A DNA stretch of 24,657 nucleotides. It comes from a virus. The translations under genes were made by a program, and so were the position numbers. Shown here one piece after another: positions 82 to 16,509 of this stretch. The notes under the pieces are model-generated. The model was not told where the DNA came from. It saw only the letters and a program-made list of their open reading frames with translations, and made no database searches. The stretch's first letter is position 1, and every line of letters begins with the position of its first letter. The stretch is from positions 1-24,657 of IMG/VR virus record IMGVR_UViG_3300048672_000491; one strand, written 5' to 3'.

Positions 82-807
82 ATGAAATGTTGGGTATGTG
101 AATCAGAAGAGGGTTTTAAATTATGCTCTACCAAGTTATCCGACGATAGGACTGCATACAGGCATTATTGCCCAACGTGCGGAAACCTTGTCGGAAGCCA
201 TGTCAAAAAAGATATTGCTCTCACATGTGGATATGAACTAACCGAGCAAAGCGGCGATACAAGGGCTTATGAATATCATCGTTTTATGAATGATATTTAT
301 GATTGGCAATCGACTCTACCGAAAGAAATGCAAGACTGGTATTTAGTTAGTGCTAACGCAAGTTTCTATTTATACGTTGGAAAGCATCGGTTTAGTAGGA
401 TTATCCCGCTTTGGATAGCAGACTCATGGGCGCATTGTTTTTATGAGGATGATGAACATTTTAAGGATAGTGGTTTTTATGATTTATTGAGCAAGGTAGT
501 TGACTGGGAAACATTCCATAGCGACATAAACAAGCAATTCCAGATCCCAAAGTTTAGCCACAAAATACCATCAATCCTATATAAAGATTACAACGATTAC
601 ATCCAGTCTCAAAAATGGAAACGTCAACGCGATAACAGAATGGCAATCGACAACAACGAATGTAAATTGTGCTTTTCAAAAGCAAACCTACACGTTCACC
701 ACATCACTTATGACAACTTTGGTAACGAGCCGATGAACGAGTTGATCACGGTTTGTAAAGCTTGCCACGAGAAAATACACGGACACGAAATAGGTAGCAA
801 ACAATGA
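82..807 (+). CDS. HNH endonuclease with N-terminal zinc-ribbon-like region
   Basis: A 241-residue protein. The C-terminal third (about 165-235) is an HNH nuclease: a CKLC pair, then LHVHHITYD, then CKACHEKIH, giving the paired CxxC zinc knuckles and the catalytic HH of the H-N-H fold. The N-terminus has CWVC near residue 3 and CPTC near 31, a probable second zinc site. The middle 120 residues match nothing I recognise. Phage HNH proteins are either free-standing homing nucleases or packaging cofactors. This one is far from the terminase and among small accessory genes, so a mobile or accessory nuclease is more likely. It overlaps the next gene by ATGA and shares its HNH type with the gene at 3362. 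Confidence 0.85.
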   Translation: MKCWVCESEEGFKLCSTKLSDDRTAYRHYCPTCGNLVGSHVKKDIALTCGYELTEQSGDTRAYEYHRFMNDIYDWQSTLPKEMQDWYLVSANASFYLYVGKHRFSRIIPLWIADSWAHCFYEDDEHFKDSGFYDLLSKVVDWETFHSDINKQFQIPKFSHKIPSILYKDYNDYIQSQKWKRQRDNRMAIDNNECKLCFSKANLHVHHITYDNFGNEPMNELITVCKACHEKIHGHEIGSKQ

Positions 808-12315: not shown

Positions 12316-12375
12316 ATGTCCGCAAGTAAAACAACTGTTTGAAACAAATGTTTTATTTTATTGGGGAATACGGTA

Positions 12376-12408
12376 TATAATCGCGCAAACCTTTGTTATG
12401 TTATAACA
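12376..12408 (+). promoter_or_regulatory. Promoter with downstream palindromic operator ahead of the head gene
   Basis: A consensus -10 TATAAT (12376-12381) is followed by CGCGCAAA, then the palindrome TGTTATG T TATAACA (12394-12408, one mismatch between arms), six bases before ATG 12415. The RNA would start near 12388, so the operator lies in the leader. No -35 close to consensus and no ribosome site are visible. The same two elements occur in the reverse order at 4988-5022. Confidence 0.6.
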
Positions 12409-12414
12409 TTACAC

Positions 12415-14160
12415 ATGATGCAAAAATTAGCAAAACCTGTCATTTCTAATCGTGGCGTAGCAATACGCTATCGAAAAGCTATTGACCGTGAAATACAGGC
12501 AATGCTGGATTCTTTGGAATATTGGTTACAAGCGGCATACCGAAAAGCACCTCCACTGATTGCGCAAGATGCAAGTCCAGTGCAAATCGTTAAAAAGATT
12601 TTCGCTCGGTTAGCTAAGTATTGGCTAGACCGCTTTAACACCAAAGCCGATGAAATCGCAAATTATCACGTTGGCAGAATGTTCCAAACATCGGATAAAT
12701 CACTACAACAATCTTTGAAAGATGCGGGCTGGGCTGTCGATTTTAAGATGACCAAAGAAATGAAGGACGCACTCAACGCAAGTATGGCGGAAAACGTGGG
12801 ATTGATTAAATCGATACCTGCTCAGCTATTGCCACAAGTTGAGGGTATCGTGATGCGGTCGTATAGCTCAGGGCGTGACCTATCAACGATGGTTGATGAC
12901 ATTAGAGCATTGCACCCAGTCTCACAAAGACGCGCCGCATTGATAGCACGCGATCAATCCAACAAAGCGAATGCTGTCGTTAATCGTACCCGCTGTTTAG
13001 AGCTTGGAATAACTGAAGCTAAATGGATGCACTCCAGCGCAGGAAAGAAACCACGCGCAAGCCACGTTAAAGCACATGGCACGGTGTTCGATATTGCTAG
13101 AGGTTGCAAGATTGATGGTGATTACATACAGCCAGGCGAACTTATTAATTGCTTGCCAGATTATTCACCAATTGAGTTCTTTCCAGACTGTAGGAAGTTT
13201 TTTAAGCGTAGTTTTACTGGTGAATTGACCAGACTTGTTACGGGCATGGGTTCGACTATCGAAGCGACTGGAAATCACCCCGTGCTTACGCAACGCGGAT
13301 GGATTGCTATTAAGGATGTTAATTTGGCTGATTATGTAGTCAAAATCAGAGACCAACAAATCAATCGACATGAATTTAACAACCAACAAAGTGTACCCAG
13401 CATTGGTAAGATATTCGAGGCGTTGTCTATAATATTCGGTATTGAGGTGATAGCTCCCGCTTCTATAGCTCAATTCCACGGCGACGCTACCAATAACGAA
13501 GTCGATATTATAACCGTGCAATGCTTTTTGCCAGATGAAATCAATATTATTGAGTTGCAACAATTCTTTAAATTCTTTTTCACCAGTGCCGATCATTTGC
13601 TCATAAGCGAGACCGAACTGGATACCATTAGCGCGTTTAATTTTTTCGTTAGCAGGTCTTGTAACGCCCCTGACAGCATCATTAGCAGCTTTACAACGTT
13701 TCTGTTTTTGGTCAAAAGGCATTTGAGCCATGCTGACGATGTTGGCAGCGGAGCTATTGCGCAACTCAACGCCCTCTTGTTTGAGTCGGTGTGTAATAAC
13801 ATTTCTAGCTACTTGGTATTTTTTGGCAAGGAACAGCACACTAAGTCCATCGATATATTCAGCAGCGATAATTTTGTTAGGAAGTTCTATTCTTGTTTTC
13901 TTTTTGCTTTTAAGCGGGATAATAAGCCCACGTTGTTTGATATAAGTGCTGATGACATTACGACCAAAACCAACAACGGCGGCGGCATCCTTGAGGGTGT
14001 ACCCATCGGTGAATATGAGCTTGACCGCGTTATCAATATCAGTAGTAGTGATTTTTCTGGACATGTTTATAATCTCGAGAATAAATTAAATTGGTATTCT
14101 GTAAACAATATTATAACACACAATTGCCGATGTACATCACGCGCCATTTTACCAATATGA
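12415..14160 (+). CDS. Mu gpF-like head morphogenesis protein, interrupted by an intein
   Basis: A minor head protein needed for procapsid assembly. The 581-residue precursor is 245 residues of N-extein, a 325-residue intein and 11 of C-extein. The N-extein has the gpF-like C-terminal region: RRAALIARDQSNKANA, KWMHSSAGKKPRASHVKAHG, then GCKIDGDYIQPGELIN. After splicing it would join to CRCTSRAILPI, restoring the family's PGE-x-INCRC motif, so the mature protein is 256 residues. Start ATG 12415 is preferred to TTG 12361, which precedes the -10 box; ATG 12418 is also possible. The stop overlaps the next start (ATGA), so ribosomes must cross the whole intein to couple to the next gene. Confidence 0.92.
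   Translation: MMQKLAKPVISNRGVAIRYRKAIDREIQAMLDSLEYWLQAAYRKAPPLIAQDASPVQIVKKIFARLAKYWLDRFNTKADEIANYHVGRMFQTSDKSLQQSLKDAGWAVDFKMTKEMKDALNASMAENVGLIKSIPAQLLPQVEGIVMRSYSSGRDLSTMVDDIRALHPVSQRRAALIARDQSNKANAVVNRTRCLELGITEAKWMHSSAGKKPRASHVKAHGTVFDIARGCKIDGDYIQPGELINCLPDYSPIEFFPDCRKFFKRSFTGELTRLVTGMGSTIEATGNHPVLTQRGWIAIKDVNLADYVVKIRDQQINRHEFNNQQSVPSIGKIFEALSIIFGIEVIAPASIAQFHGDATNNEVDIITVQCFLPDEINIIELQQFFKFFFTSADHLLISETELDTISAFNFFVSRSCNAPDSIISSFTTFLFLVKRHLSHADDVGSGAIAQLNALLFESVCNNISSYLVFFGKEQHTKSIDIFSSDNFVRKFYSCFLFAFKRDNKPTLFDISADDITTKTNNGGGILEGVPIGEYELDRVINISSSDFSGHVYNLENKLNWYSVNNIITHNCRCTSRAILPI
13165..14064 (-). CDS. Antisense Vsr/EDxHD-like putative homing endonuclease nested in the intein
   Basis: A 299-residue protein on the strand opposite the intein, in exact codon register (its residue n faces intein residue 306-n). 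Two helix-turn-helix-like repeats are visible: about 9-46 (TLKDAAAVVGFGRNVISTYI) and 63-99 (LSVLFLAKKYQVARNVITHRL). A nuclease core follows: GYNIDFVIGSVAVELSY with D188 and E197, H206, then YYRQRLEYLTNAGYTLLVVK (211-230), the layout of Vsr-like and EDxHD homing nucleases. The tail has RNKSGQF (275-281). Its ATG faces intein His305 (block F); its stop faces Ser6 (block A). The protein reads like a real one, unlike other antisense ORFs here. Function as the intein's homing enzyme is inference. Confidence 0.82.
   Translation of the reverse strand: MSRKITTTDIDNAVKLIFTDGYTLKDAAAVVGFGRNVISTYIKQRGLIIPLKSKKKTRIELPNKIIAAEYIDGLSVLFLAKKYQVARNVITHRLKQEGVELRNSSAANIVSMAQMPFDQKQKRCKAANDAVRGVTRPANEKIKRANGIQFGLAYEQMIGTGEKEFKELLQLNNIDFIWQKALHGYNIDFVIGSVAVELSYRSGSYHLNTEYYRQRLEYLTNAGYTLLVVKFMSIDLLVSDFDYIISQINILNSNPSALRKHGVISSRFDSRTHARNKSGQFTSKTTLKKLPTVWKELNW
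14110..14118 (-). promoter_or_regulatory. Putative minus-strand extended -10 promoter for the nested nuclease
   Basis: On the minus strand 14118 to 14110 reads TGTTATAAT, a perfect TGn plus TATAAT extended -10. RNA would start near 14103, about 39 bases before the nuclease ATG (14064). CGAGA lies ahead of that ATG at ribosome-site distance. No -35 close to consensus is seen. On the sense strand these bases encode the intein's last residues (I-I-T). Confidence 0.45.
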
Positions 14161-15384: not shown

Positions 15385-16509
15385 ATGGGATTTCAAACGC
15401 AAGTAAATTTACAGCAAGCTCCAGCGGTAGAAGGTGATTTTTCCTCAGCAAATCCCCGCGCGGTTGTCTTGTCTCCAGAAGCGGGTTTTGTTGCCGGATT
15501 TGATGGTGCAACTATTGGTCGTTTTGGCTGGATTGGCGTTGACGGCGTAACCGTTGAAAACGTGGGTATTGCTCCAGCAGCCCCGAACGGGTTTATCCAT
15601 CGTGAACAACAAGGCTTGATTACTCAATATTTGGGCGAAAGCTCTATGGTCATTCCGCAAGGATTACCCGTCATTTTGCACAATCAAGGCGATTTTTGGG
15701 TAAAGAATGCGGGTTCAGGTACTACAGCAATTGGCGAGAGTGTTTACGCTGATTACGGTACAGGTCAAGCGGCTAACGCGATTCAATCAGGCGCAAGTGT
15801 TACCGCGTCAATGGGTTCGACGAATACGGCGGCTTTAGGTGCGACTTTTACGGCATCCGCTGATACTGATGCAACGCGGTTGGTTGTTACAGCGGTTACA
15901 GGCTTAATCAGTGTTGGTGATTTTGTCAGTGGTACTGGTATTACGGCGGGTACGACCATCACTAGCCAAGTGAGCGGTACTACAGGTGGCGCAGGGACTT
16001 ATCAATTAAGCGCAAGCAACACCGCAAGCACCGCAACTGTTACCGCGTTTGGTAAAGTCGTAAAAACCACATCAACCACTGGCTTAATTAGTATTGGTGA
16101 AACTATTAGTGGCGGCGCAGGTTTTCCAGTTGGCGCGACCGTAGTTAGCCAAACAAGTGGTACAACAGGCGGTGCTGGTGTTTATGTACTTAGCGCTGCG
16201 GGTTCTGCTTATACGGCTTCGACTACAGGCGTGACCACTTTTGGTAACGTGCTAAACGTAACGGCTATTGGTTCAGGCGAGTTAGAAGTCGGTGATCCAG
16301 TTAGCGGTTCAGGCGTTACCGCAAATTCCGCTATTGCTTCACAAGTTAGTGGTACGGTTGGCGGCATCGGTGTTTATACACTGACATTGCCAGCCACGGC
16401 TTACGCGGCATCTACAACTGTTACAGCGGTTGGCGGGGTAGTTACATCTTGGAAATTCGCTTCTGTTGCTGCAACTGGCGAATTAGCAAAAATCACATCA
16501 TGGGGTTAA
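15385..16509 (+). CDS. Head decoration/structural cement-like protein with three repeated modules, 374 aa
   Basis: The first 130 residues (PAVEGDFSSANPRAVVLSPE, GATIGRFGWIG, then VILHNQGDFWVKNAGSGTTAIGE) match small capsid decoration proteins that sit just before the major capsid gene. From about 166 to 348 come three copies of a 55-60-residue module with the pattern G-x-(I/L)-x-V/I-G-x-x-(V/I)-S-G, then T-x-I-x-S-Q-x-S-G-T-x-G-G-x-G-x-Y-x-L. GAGG (15373-15376) is the ribosome site. The modules would project from the head surface. The decoration call is inferred from position and pattern. Confidence 0.8.
   Translation: MGFQTQVNLQQAPAVEGDFSSANPRAVVLSPEAGFVAGFDGATIGRFGWIGVDGVTVENVGIAPAAPNGFIHREQQGLITQYLGESSMVIPQGLPVILHNQGDFWVKNAGSGTTAIGESVYADYGTGQAANAIQSGASVTASMGSTNTAALGATFTASADTDATRLVVTAVTGLISVGDFVSGTGITAGTTITSQVSGTTGGAGTYQLSASNTASTATVTAFGKVVKTTSTTGLISIGETISGGAGFPVGATVVSQTSGTTGGAGVYVLSAAGSAYTASTTGVTTFGNVLNVTAIGSGELEVGDPVSGSGVTANSAIASQVSGTVGGIGVYTLTLPATAYAASTTVTAVGGVVTSWKFASVAATGELAKITSWG
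15880..16428 (+). repeat. Three tandem copies of a Gly/Ser/Thr-rich surface module
   Basis: Copies at residues about 166-222, 228-285 and 289-348 of the decoration protein. They share SGTTGGAGTYQLSAS, SGTTGGAGVYVLSAA and SGTVGGIGVYTLTLP. DNA identity between copies is only partial, so the duplications are not recent. A fourth, diverged copy is in the neck protein (19321-19473). Confidence 0.75.

Follow-up and report, generated by a model that had tools for sequence, protein, structure and literature searches.

The viral record IMGVR_UViG_3300048672_000491 of IMG/VR, whose positions 1 to 24,657 (24,657 nucleotides in all) form the window analysed here, very probably carries a mobile intein with the gene for its homing endonuclease on the other strand. 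This reading, drawn from sequence comparison and structure prediction, is strongly supported by both the anatomy of the locus and its evolution. The intein lies in a Phage_Mu_F head gene, and a 299-codon antisense open reading frame (ORF) spans most of it, in the following arrangement:

12361-14160, + strand: Phage_Mu_F-like minor head gene with the intein in frame (Pfam, PHROG head proteins)
13150-14124, + strand: intein of 325 amino acids, with Cys1 (CLPDYSPI), block B (TGNHPVLT), block F (GHVYNLE), a C-terminal HN and a +1 Cys
13165-14064, - strand: antisense gene for a likely Vsr/I-Bth0305I-type nuclease of 299 amino acids with HTH domains at its N-terminus; its codons are in register with those of the sense frame
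13165-13167, - strand: antisense stop codon TGA, facing sense Ser, intein residue 6
13474-13503, both strands: double-read motif FHGDATNNEV / DFVIGSVAVE (with antisense Asp188 and Glu197)
13525-13989, + strand: sense reading of the insert (intein residues ~126-280), predicted to be largely disordered and probably a passenger of the antisense gene
14062-14064, both readings: block F His (CAT), which is also the antisense ATG start
14074-14079, - strand: weak, putative Shine-Dalgarno-like CTCGAG, with its GAG 9 nt upstream of the antisense ATG and facing sense Leu-Glu of block F

Judged by sequence and predicted structure, the sense strand is a Hint-type intein placed before a conserved Cys of a MuF-like head protein. 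In Pfam, the head-gene ORF matches PF04233 (Phage_Mu_F) at 32.4 bits (cut-off 29.6) and PF14890 (Intein_splicing) at 35.5 bits, just under the cut-off of 35.8. The window's intein shows Cys1 of block A, T..NH of block B, a block F and a C-terminal HN before Cys. In an alignment of 45 inteins, all selected for having Cys1 and the block F His, C1, T40, N42, H43 and H305 are invariant. The AlphaFold2 model of the sense protein (pLDDT 66 overall) is confident only in the splicing halves (85-98) and at residues ~82-104, and residues 126-280 are mostly below 50. Foldseek matches of this model are mostly inteins (best E 2.3e-3, probability up to 1.00), none of them at E<=1e-3.

The N-exteins examined (40) match mainly Phage_Mu_F (25/40), with VG15 (3/40) and Phage_min_cap2 (2/40) also found. 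The 43 listed insertion sites are alike, the intein Cys mostly following N, Q, R or H, and the +1 Cys follows wherever the intein end is called correctly; some C-terminal ends in this listing were set too early, and Cys was part of the search expression. Intein-free head-gene alleles occur in Aeromonas phage 4_D05, where the uninterrupted site of the head protein reads PGEEIN/CRC (the slash marks the insertion point), and in Acinetobacter phage IME285. The C-extein of the window (14125-14160) is only 11 codons long and overlaps the likely ATG (~14130) of a downstream head maturation protease gene. Several alike segments (VSGTTGGAGTYQLSASN-like) recur in the protein predicted from 15385-16509 (+ strand), which suggests a structural gene with internal repeats.

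LAGLIDADG-type inteins carry their homing endonuclease domain in frame within the Hint splicing domain. The present intein has in common with them the Hint domain, a homing-type nuclease and an insert between blocks B and F. It differs from them in that the nuclease gene runs along the other strand and shares DNA even with the splicing blocks, and in that the nuclease is a separate protein rather than a domain of the intein polypeptide.

The structural model and distant matches indicate that the antisense protein is likely a Vsr/I-Bth0305I-type nuclease with N-terminal HTH domains. The AlphaFold2 model built from this protein and 61 relatives has a pLDDT of 90.2 and a pTM of 0.65, and places Asp188 and Glu197 on neighbouring strands. 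The sole Foldseek match against the PDB at E<=1e-3 is the I-Bth0305I catalytic domain (3r3p, E 9.3e-4, TM 0.63 on the target, 25% identity). The top VIA-align matches are Vsr (1cw0, Z 9.1), I-Bth0305I (3r3p, Z 8.9) and an endonuclease-like protein (3hrl, Z 8.8), scores just above the value of 8 under which a match may mean a common arrangement only. Profile searches recovered 3hrl (E 2e-6) and 3r3p (E 1e-4), and D188 and E197 are paired with a D and an E of 3hrl in the HMM alignment; E162 is conserved in at least 90% of sequences. The window protein scores 19.6 bits against DUF559 (PF04480), under the cut-off of 20.6. Among 62 family members, weak Pfam matches at E<=1e-3 are to MTES_1575 (14/62) and DUF559 (7/62), and the HTH families found are HTH_23 (20/62) and HTH_7 (19/62).

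The core fold is common to Vsr and the DUF559/MTES_1575 nucleases, from which the antisense nuclease differs by its extra HTH domains and its intein setting, and against which its scores are mostly weak. The catalytic fold is also that of I-Bth0305I, an EDxHD homing endonuclease (3r3p); in the antisense protein the invariant D188 and E197 and the conserved E162 are candidates for residues of the EDxHD set. I-Bth0305I is recorded as a 'mobile intron protein', whereas the gene described here sits opposite an intein, and I-Bth0305I is not known as encoded opposite an intein. PMC3943268 describes I-Bth0305I as a phage homing enzyme with a separate DNA-binding region, as the antisense protein would also be.

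The antisense protein matches 115 of 50,697 phage records (tblastn, best E 2e-42). We inspected the feature tables of 16 phage loci, 15 of which are nested opposite a head-gene CDS with the aligned sense frame open through the intein. None of these 15 records has an annotated antisense CDS over the intein, nor do the nested records of Snoke and vB_VaM_H2. This bears out the suggestion of the initial annotation that such nesting may characterise an entire family of which just one strand has been annotated. In the 16th locus, that of IME285, the homologue is an annotated free-standing gene beside an uninterrupted head gene, and 9 stops interrupt the aligned opposite frame across the match. The second free-standing copy is in locus L139. 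In IME285 (vB_AbaM_IME285, locus L001, 455-1348) the free-standing nuclease is convergent with the intein-free head gene. The starts of the L001 and L139 copies face HVHSLM or HVYSRM, resembling a relic of block F; escape of both copies from a nested intein is suggested.

Further searches extend the family. The nuclease HMM matches 235 loci, with 235 matches where the opposite frame is open versus 2 with stops, although many of these loci overlap or are near-identical, hence not independent, and L145 and L146 are each represented by two pieces. Selecting IMG/VR contigs by the sense motif alone returned at least 119, and in 119 of 119 the motif lies in a sense ORF with the aligned antisense frame open, the antisense stop mostly lying ~90-115 codons from the motif. 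Antisense stops in motif-bearing inteins, which would have spoken against a conserved antisense gene, are rare. Two of the motif-picked loci (L091 and L093) have short, truncated-looking frames, and some others are incomplete at a contig end. Applied to bacterial genomes, the motif pattern gave 14 matches, comprising 5 nested inteins and 9 chance matches. Finally, all 80 IMG/VR loci kept in a selection by the N-terminal splicing domain of the intein (the best 80 of 517 confirmed candidates) carry the nested nuclease; the motif played no part in this choice, which is not fully independent in that the DNA of the splicing domain partly overlaps the nuclease C-terminus. The matched-control search for ordinary inteins returned only those of the window and of Aggregatibacter, and the comparisons made here are among inteins with a nested gene.

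A few loci depart from the common arrangement. In L145 and L146 a single antisense stop interrupts the nuclease ahead of its catalytic core, yet the intein reading remains open, likely an early stage of endonuclease decay. In L148 (2-1006) the nuclease frame continues, open, from an upstream stretch unlike the family N-terminus and located at the contig end, which is either a fusion or an assembly join. The antisense stops of L006 in the pair analysis probably reflect a pattern match begun before the intein (364 codons), and the ORF is open when checked on its own locus.

Codon comparisons across the family show selection that appears split between the strands along the intein. In 90 representatives, antisense residues such as G73, L94, A127, A145 and L169 are kept and antisense position 3, which is sense position 1, varies freely; the pattern is reversed opposite the splicing blocks; this set is mostly motif-picked, so its motif columns are biased. 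Differences are more frequent at antisense position 3 than at position 1 in 29 of 33 independent pairs. Over antisense codons 61-183, 60% of single differences are antisense-synonymous and sense-nonsynonymous versus 13.5% for the reverse, and opposite the splicing blocks this bias flips (25% versus 56%). Among 64 representatives from motif-independent selections, every window of antisense codons 71-190 is antisense-constrained, while the window 191-200 is sense-constrained. In the comparison of codon positions proposed at the outset, most of the insert is under selection in the antisense reading, and the splicing blocks are under selection in the sense reading.

The motif itself lies at 13474-13503. 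The sense codons TTC CAC GGC GAC GCT ACC AAT AAC GAA GTC encode FHGDATNNEV, followed by Asp, and their complement, GAC TTC GTT ATT GGT AGC GTC GCC GTG GAA, encodes DFVIGSVAVE in the antisense ORF. Numbering the intein from Cys1 at 13150, Phe109 is opposite antisense Glu197 (GAA) and Val118 (GTC) is opposite antisense Asp188 (GAC), so that the coordinates, codons and exact register of the initial annotation are confirmed. It had further described the FHGD motif as common in phage head-gene inteins and proposed a conserved antisense nuclease with a D-x(8)-E pair. Both statements agree with the 64 motif-independent sequences, in which the sense residues F, H, G and D are found in 62, 58, 60 and 63, and Asp188 and Glu197 are invariant (64/64). 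The 80 splicing-domain loci yielded 57 distinct motifs, the remainder being repeats or outside the search expression.

The same annotation proposed that the whole sense motif would be a shadow of the antisense nuclease. This stands for E-V-D-V-V, which behaves as such a shadow, and not for F-H-G-D, which is also sense-constrained, antisense-synonymous codons being available yet unused. We consider it unlikely that the intein makes no use of FHGD...EVDV and that the motif is kept only through the nuclease, although several observations agree with that explanation. At its wobble positions the sense motif uses the codons that the antisense reading requires: in nested loci F is TTC in 119/119, G is GGC in 119/119 and the Val opposite Asp188 is GTC/ATC in 119/119 (of at least 119, these being the matches listed), under a search pattern that allowed other codons for F, G and V. 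The 5 bacterial nested inteins likewise use TTC, GGC and GTC/ATC, and the 9 chance matches are mixed. Sense-synonymous changes that destroy the antisense Asp or Glu, named beforehand as evidence against a shadow, were not seen, as the wobble choice always preserves both. The rare sense variants FDGD, FNGD and FHRD retain antisense Val/Ile or Ala, and L147, which reads LDEN in sense, keeps the antisense Asp and Glu. Moreover, the free-standing copies in IME285 and L139, which give no sense product, drop FHGD (sense FQRH...stop) and retain the antisense D and VALE with other codons.

Against this explanation stand the sense constraint on antisense window 191-200 and the frozen wobble positions of antisense codons 194-197 in the 64 motif-independent representatives. 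In a binomial comparison with the usage of this ORF, in which kinship was handled by 90% clustering only, Glu197 is GAA in 62/64 (background 0.55, P 3e-14), Val196 is GTG in 56/58 (0.16, P 5e-42), Ala195 is GCC in 59/60 (0.38, P 4e-24) and Val194 is GTC in 42/42 (0.43), whereas the codons for Tyr185, Asn186 and Asp188 are near background usage. Because the wobble of codons 194-197 is frozen, sense F-H-G-D appears to be selected in its own right, which is the simplest explanation of these codon choices, and a reading of FHGD purely as a shadow was rejected. The 12 bases encoding sense F-H-G-D and antisense V-A-V-E would then be selected in both readings, FHGD probably contributing to structure at the margin of the splicing domain. 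A conserved DNA-level element at the motif is not favoured, as the third base of the sense Asp varies (antisense GTC in 42, ATC in 21).

The antisense gene starts in block F, where codon choice is also biased. The block F His is CAT in 61 of the 64 motif-independent representatives, nearly all of which were chosen with this His (30.3 expected, z 8.1), and the block F Leu is CTC, giving GAG in the antisense leader, in 39/59 (12.1 expected, z 9.2); expected counts derive from the flanking sense-strand frames. GGAG or GAGG occurs in 38/64 antisense leaders. An earlier, mostly motif-picked set gave 60/71 and 57/74 in the start and Shine-Dalgarno test. Seven of the 80 splicing-domain loci extend past the contig end; 9 of the other 73 do not match the expected His of block F, so that an overlap with the start codon is not found in every locus. 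Seven loci with a nested nuclease (L174, L184, L206, L208, L212, L224 and L236) have a block F without the usual His (for example GLVYNFE or GWVYNFE), and the antisense start must therefore lie elsewhere in them. A promoter scan near the antisense start found 4 sites versus 2.0 expected, nothing clearly above chance.

The conserved nuclease could have a job other than homing, such as attack on rival phages or DNA repair, and its fold is indeed common to the Vsr repair enzymes. We regard this as very unlikely, since the nuclease is found within the intein at a like insertion site across loci, its best solved-structure match by Foldseek is a homing endonuclease, related phages have an empty site, and nuclease similarity exceeds extein similarity in many pairs (for example identities of 0.57 versus 0.28). 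Over 780 pairs, nuclease and extein identities are loosely correlated (Spearman 0.32), which fits horizontal transfer, although homing is not proved by it.

Openness of the antisense frame is in itself weak evidence because GC-rich genes often have open antisense frames by chance. The 299 codons contain 0 antisense stops versus 17.6 predicted from local codon usage, a comparison that is overstated since the stretch is bounded by the ORF itself. With the ends set by sense anatomy instead, 106/108 loci are without antisense stops, and 111 of 230 flanking genes of >=280 aa in these GC-rich genomes are likewise open for 230 antisense codons. That the window holds an ordinary intein with an extra in-frame domain, its antisense ORF a coincidence of codon usage, is nonetheless hardly credible and was rejected: such chance openness and the order kept in the sense insert at residues ~82-104 agree with it, but it is contradicted by the antisense homologues, by the two free-standing copies, whose aligned opposite frames hold 12 and 13 stops, by substitutions biased to antisense-synonymous changes, and by a nuclease fold that is confidently modelled while the sense insert is mostly disordered.

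For an intein with an antisense homing endonuclease, the steps would be as follows. The antisense protein would be made during infection and would cut intein-free head genes at the insertion site, and repair would copy the intein into the cut gene. The spliced-out intein would carry the shadow reading as a passenger.

We did not find an intein with an antisense endonuclease in the literature searched, two works being outside its reach (Gorbalenya 1998, Non-canonical inteins, and the preprint 2025.01.02.630785). PMC11855218 already describes a homing nuclease that is hidden out of frame, on the same strand: the ShiLan domain resembles the present case in that a phage insertion, itself in frame, conceals a nuclease of homing type in a different frame. 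It lies in the third frame of the same strand, is of HNH type, and has no detectable splicing domain or RBS. The present nuclease differs from it in its opposite strand and Vsr-like fold. Overlapping reading frames are described as frequent in actinobacteriophages in PMC11855218, citing Gosselin, Arsenault and Gogarten (bioRxiv 2025.01.02.630785). This 2025 preprint on the 'non-canonical architecture' of actinobacteriophage inteins may already describe part or all of the arrangement; as cited there, its phages are actinobacteriophages, and Gordonia phages are also in the present set.

Our results indicate that annotation can overlook a conserved nuclease family in well-studied phages (Klebsiella, Salmonella, Pseudomonas, Vibrio, Gordonia and Aggregatibacter) because only one strand is called. 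Few natural experiments in two-way coding are as clean as this antisense overlap of ~300 codons, in which dozens of separate phage lineages show selection at the protein level on each strand. An intein and its homing endonuclease can normally be separated, and the endonuclease tends to decay after fixation of the intein. Here, the splicing blocks carry the start codon, the Shine-Dalgarno-like site and the C-terminus of the nuclease, so that the two functions are interlocked and the parts cannot easily separate. We think it probable that this is a large, phage-borne family, in which the same 300 codons serve a splicing domain and an endonuclease, the 12 bases of the intein motif FHGD and of VAVE, the catalytic strand of the nuclease, are selected at the protein level in both readings, and block F doubles as the RBS and start of the nuclease. 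If so, loss of either function would be hindered by the other, and the usual decay of endonucleases inside inteins may be slowed.
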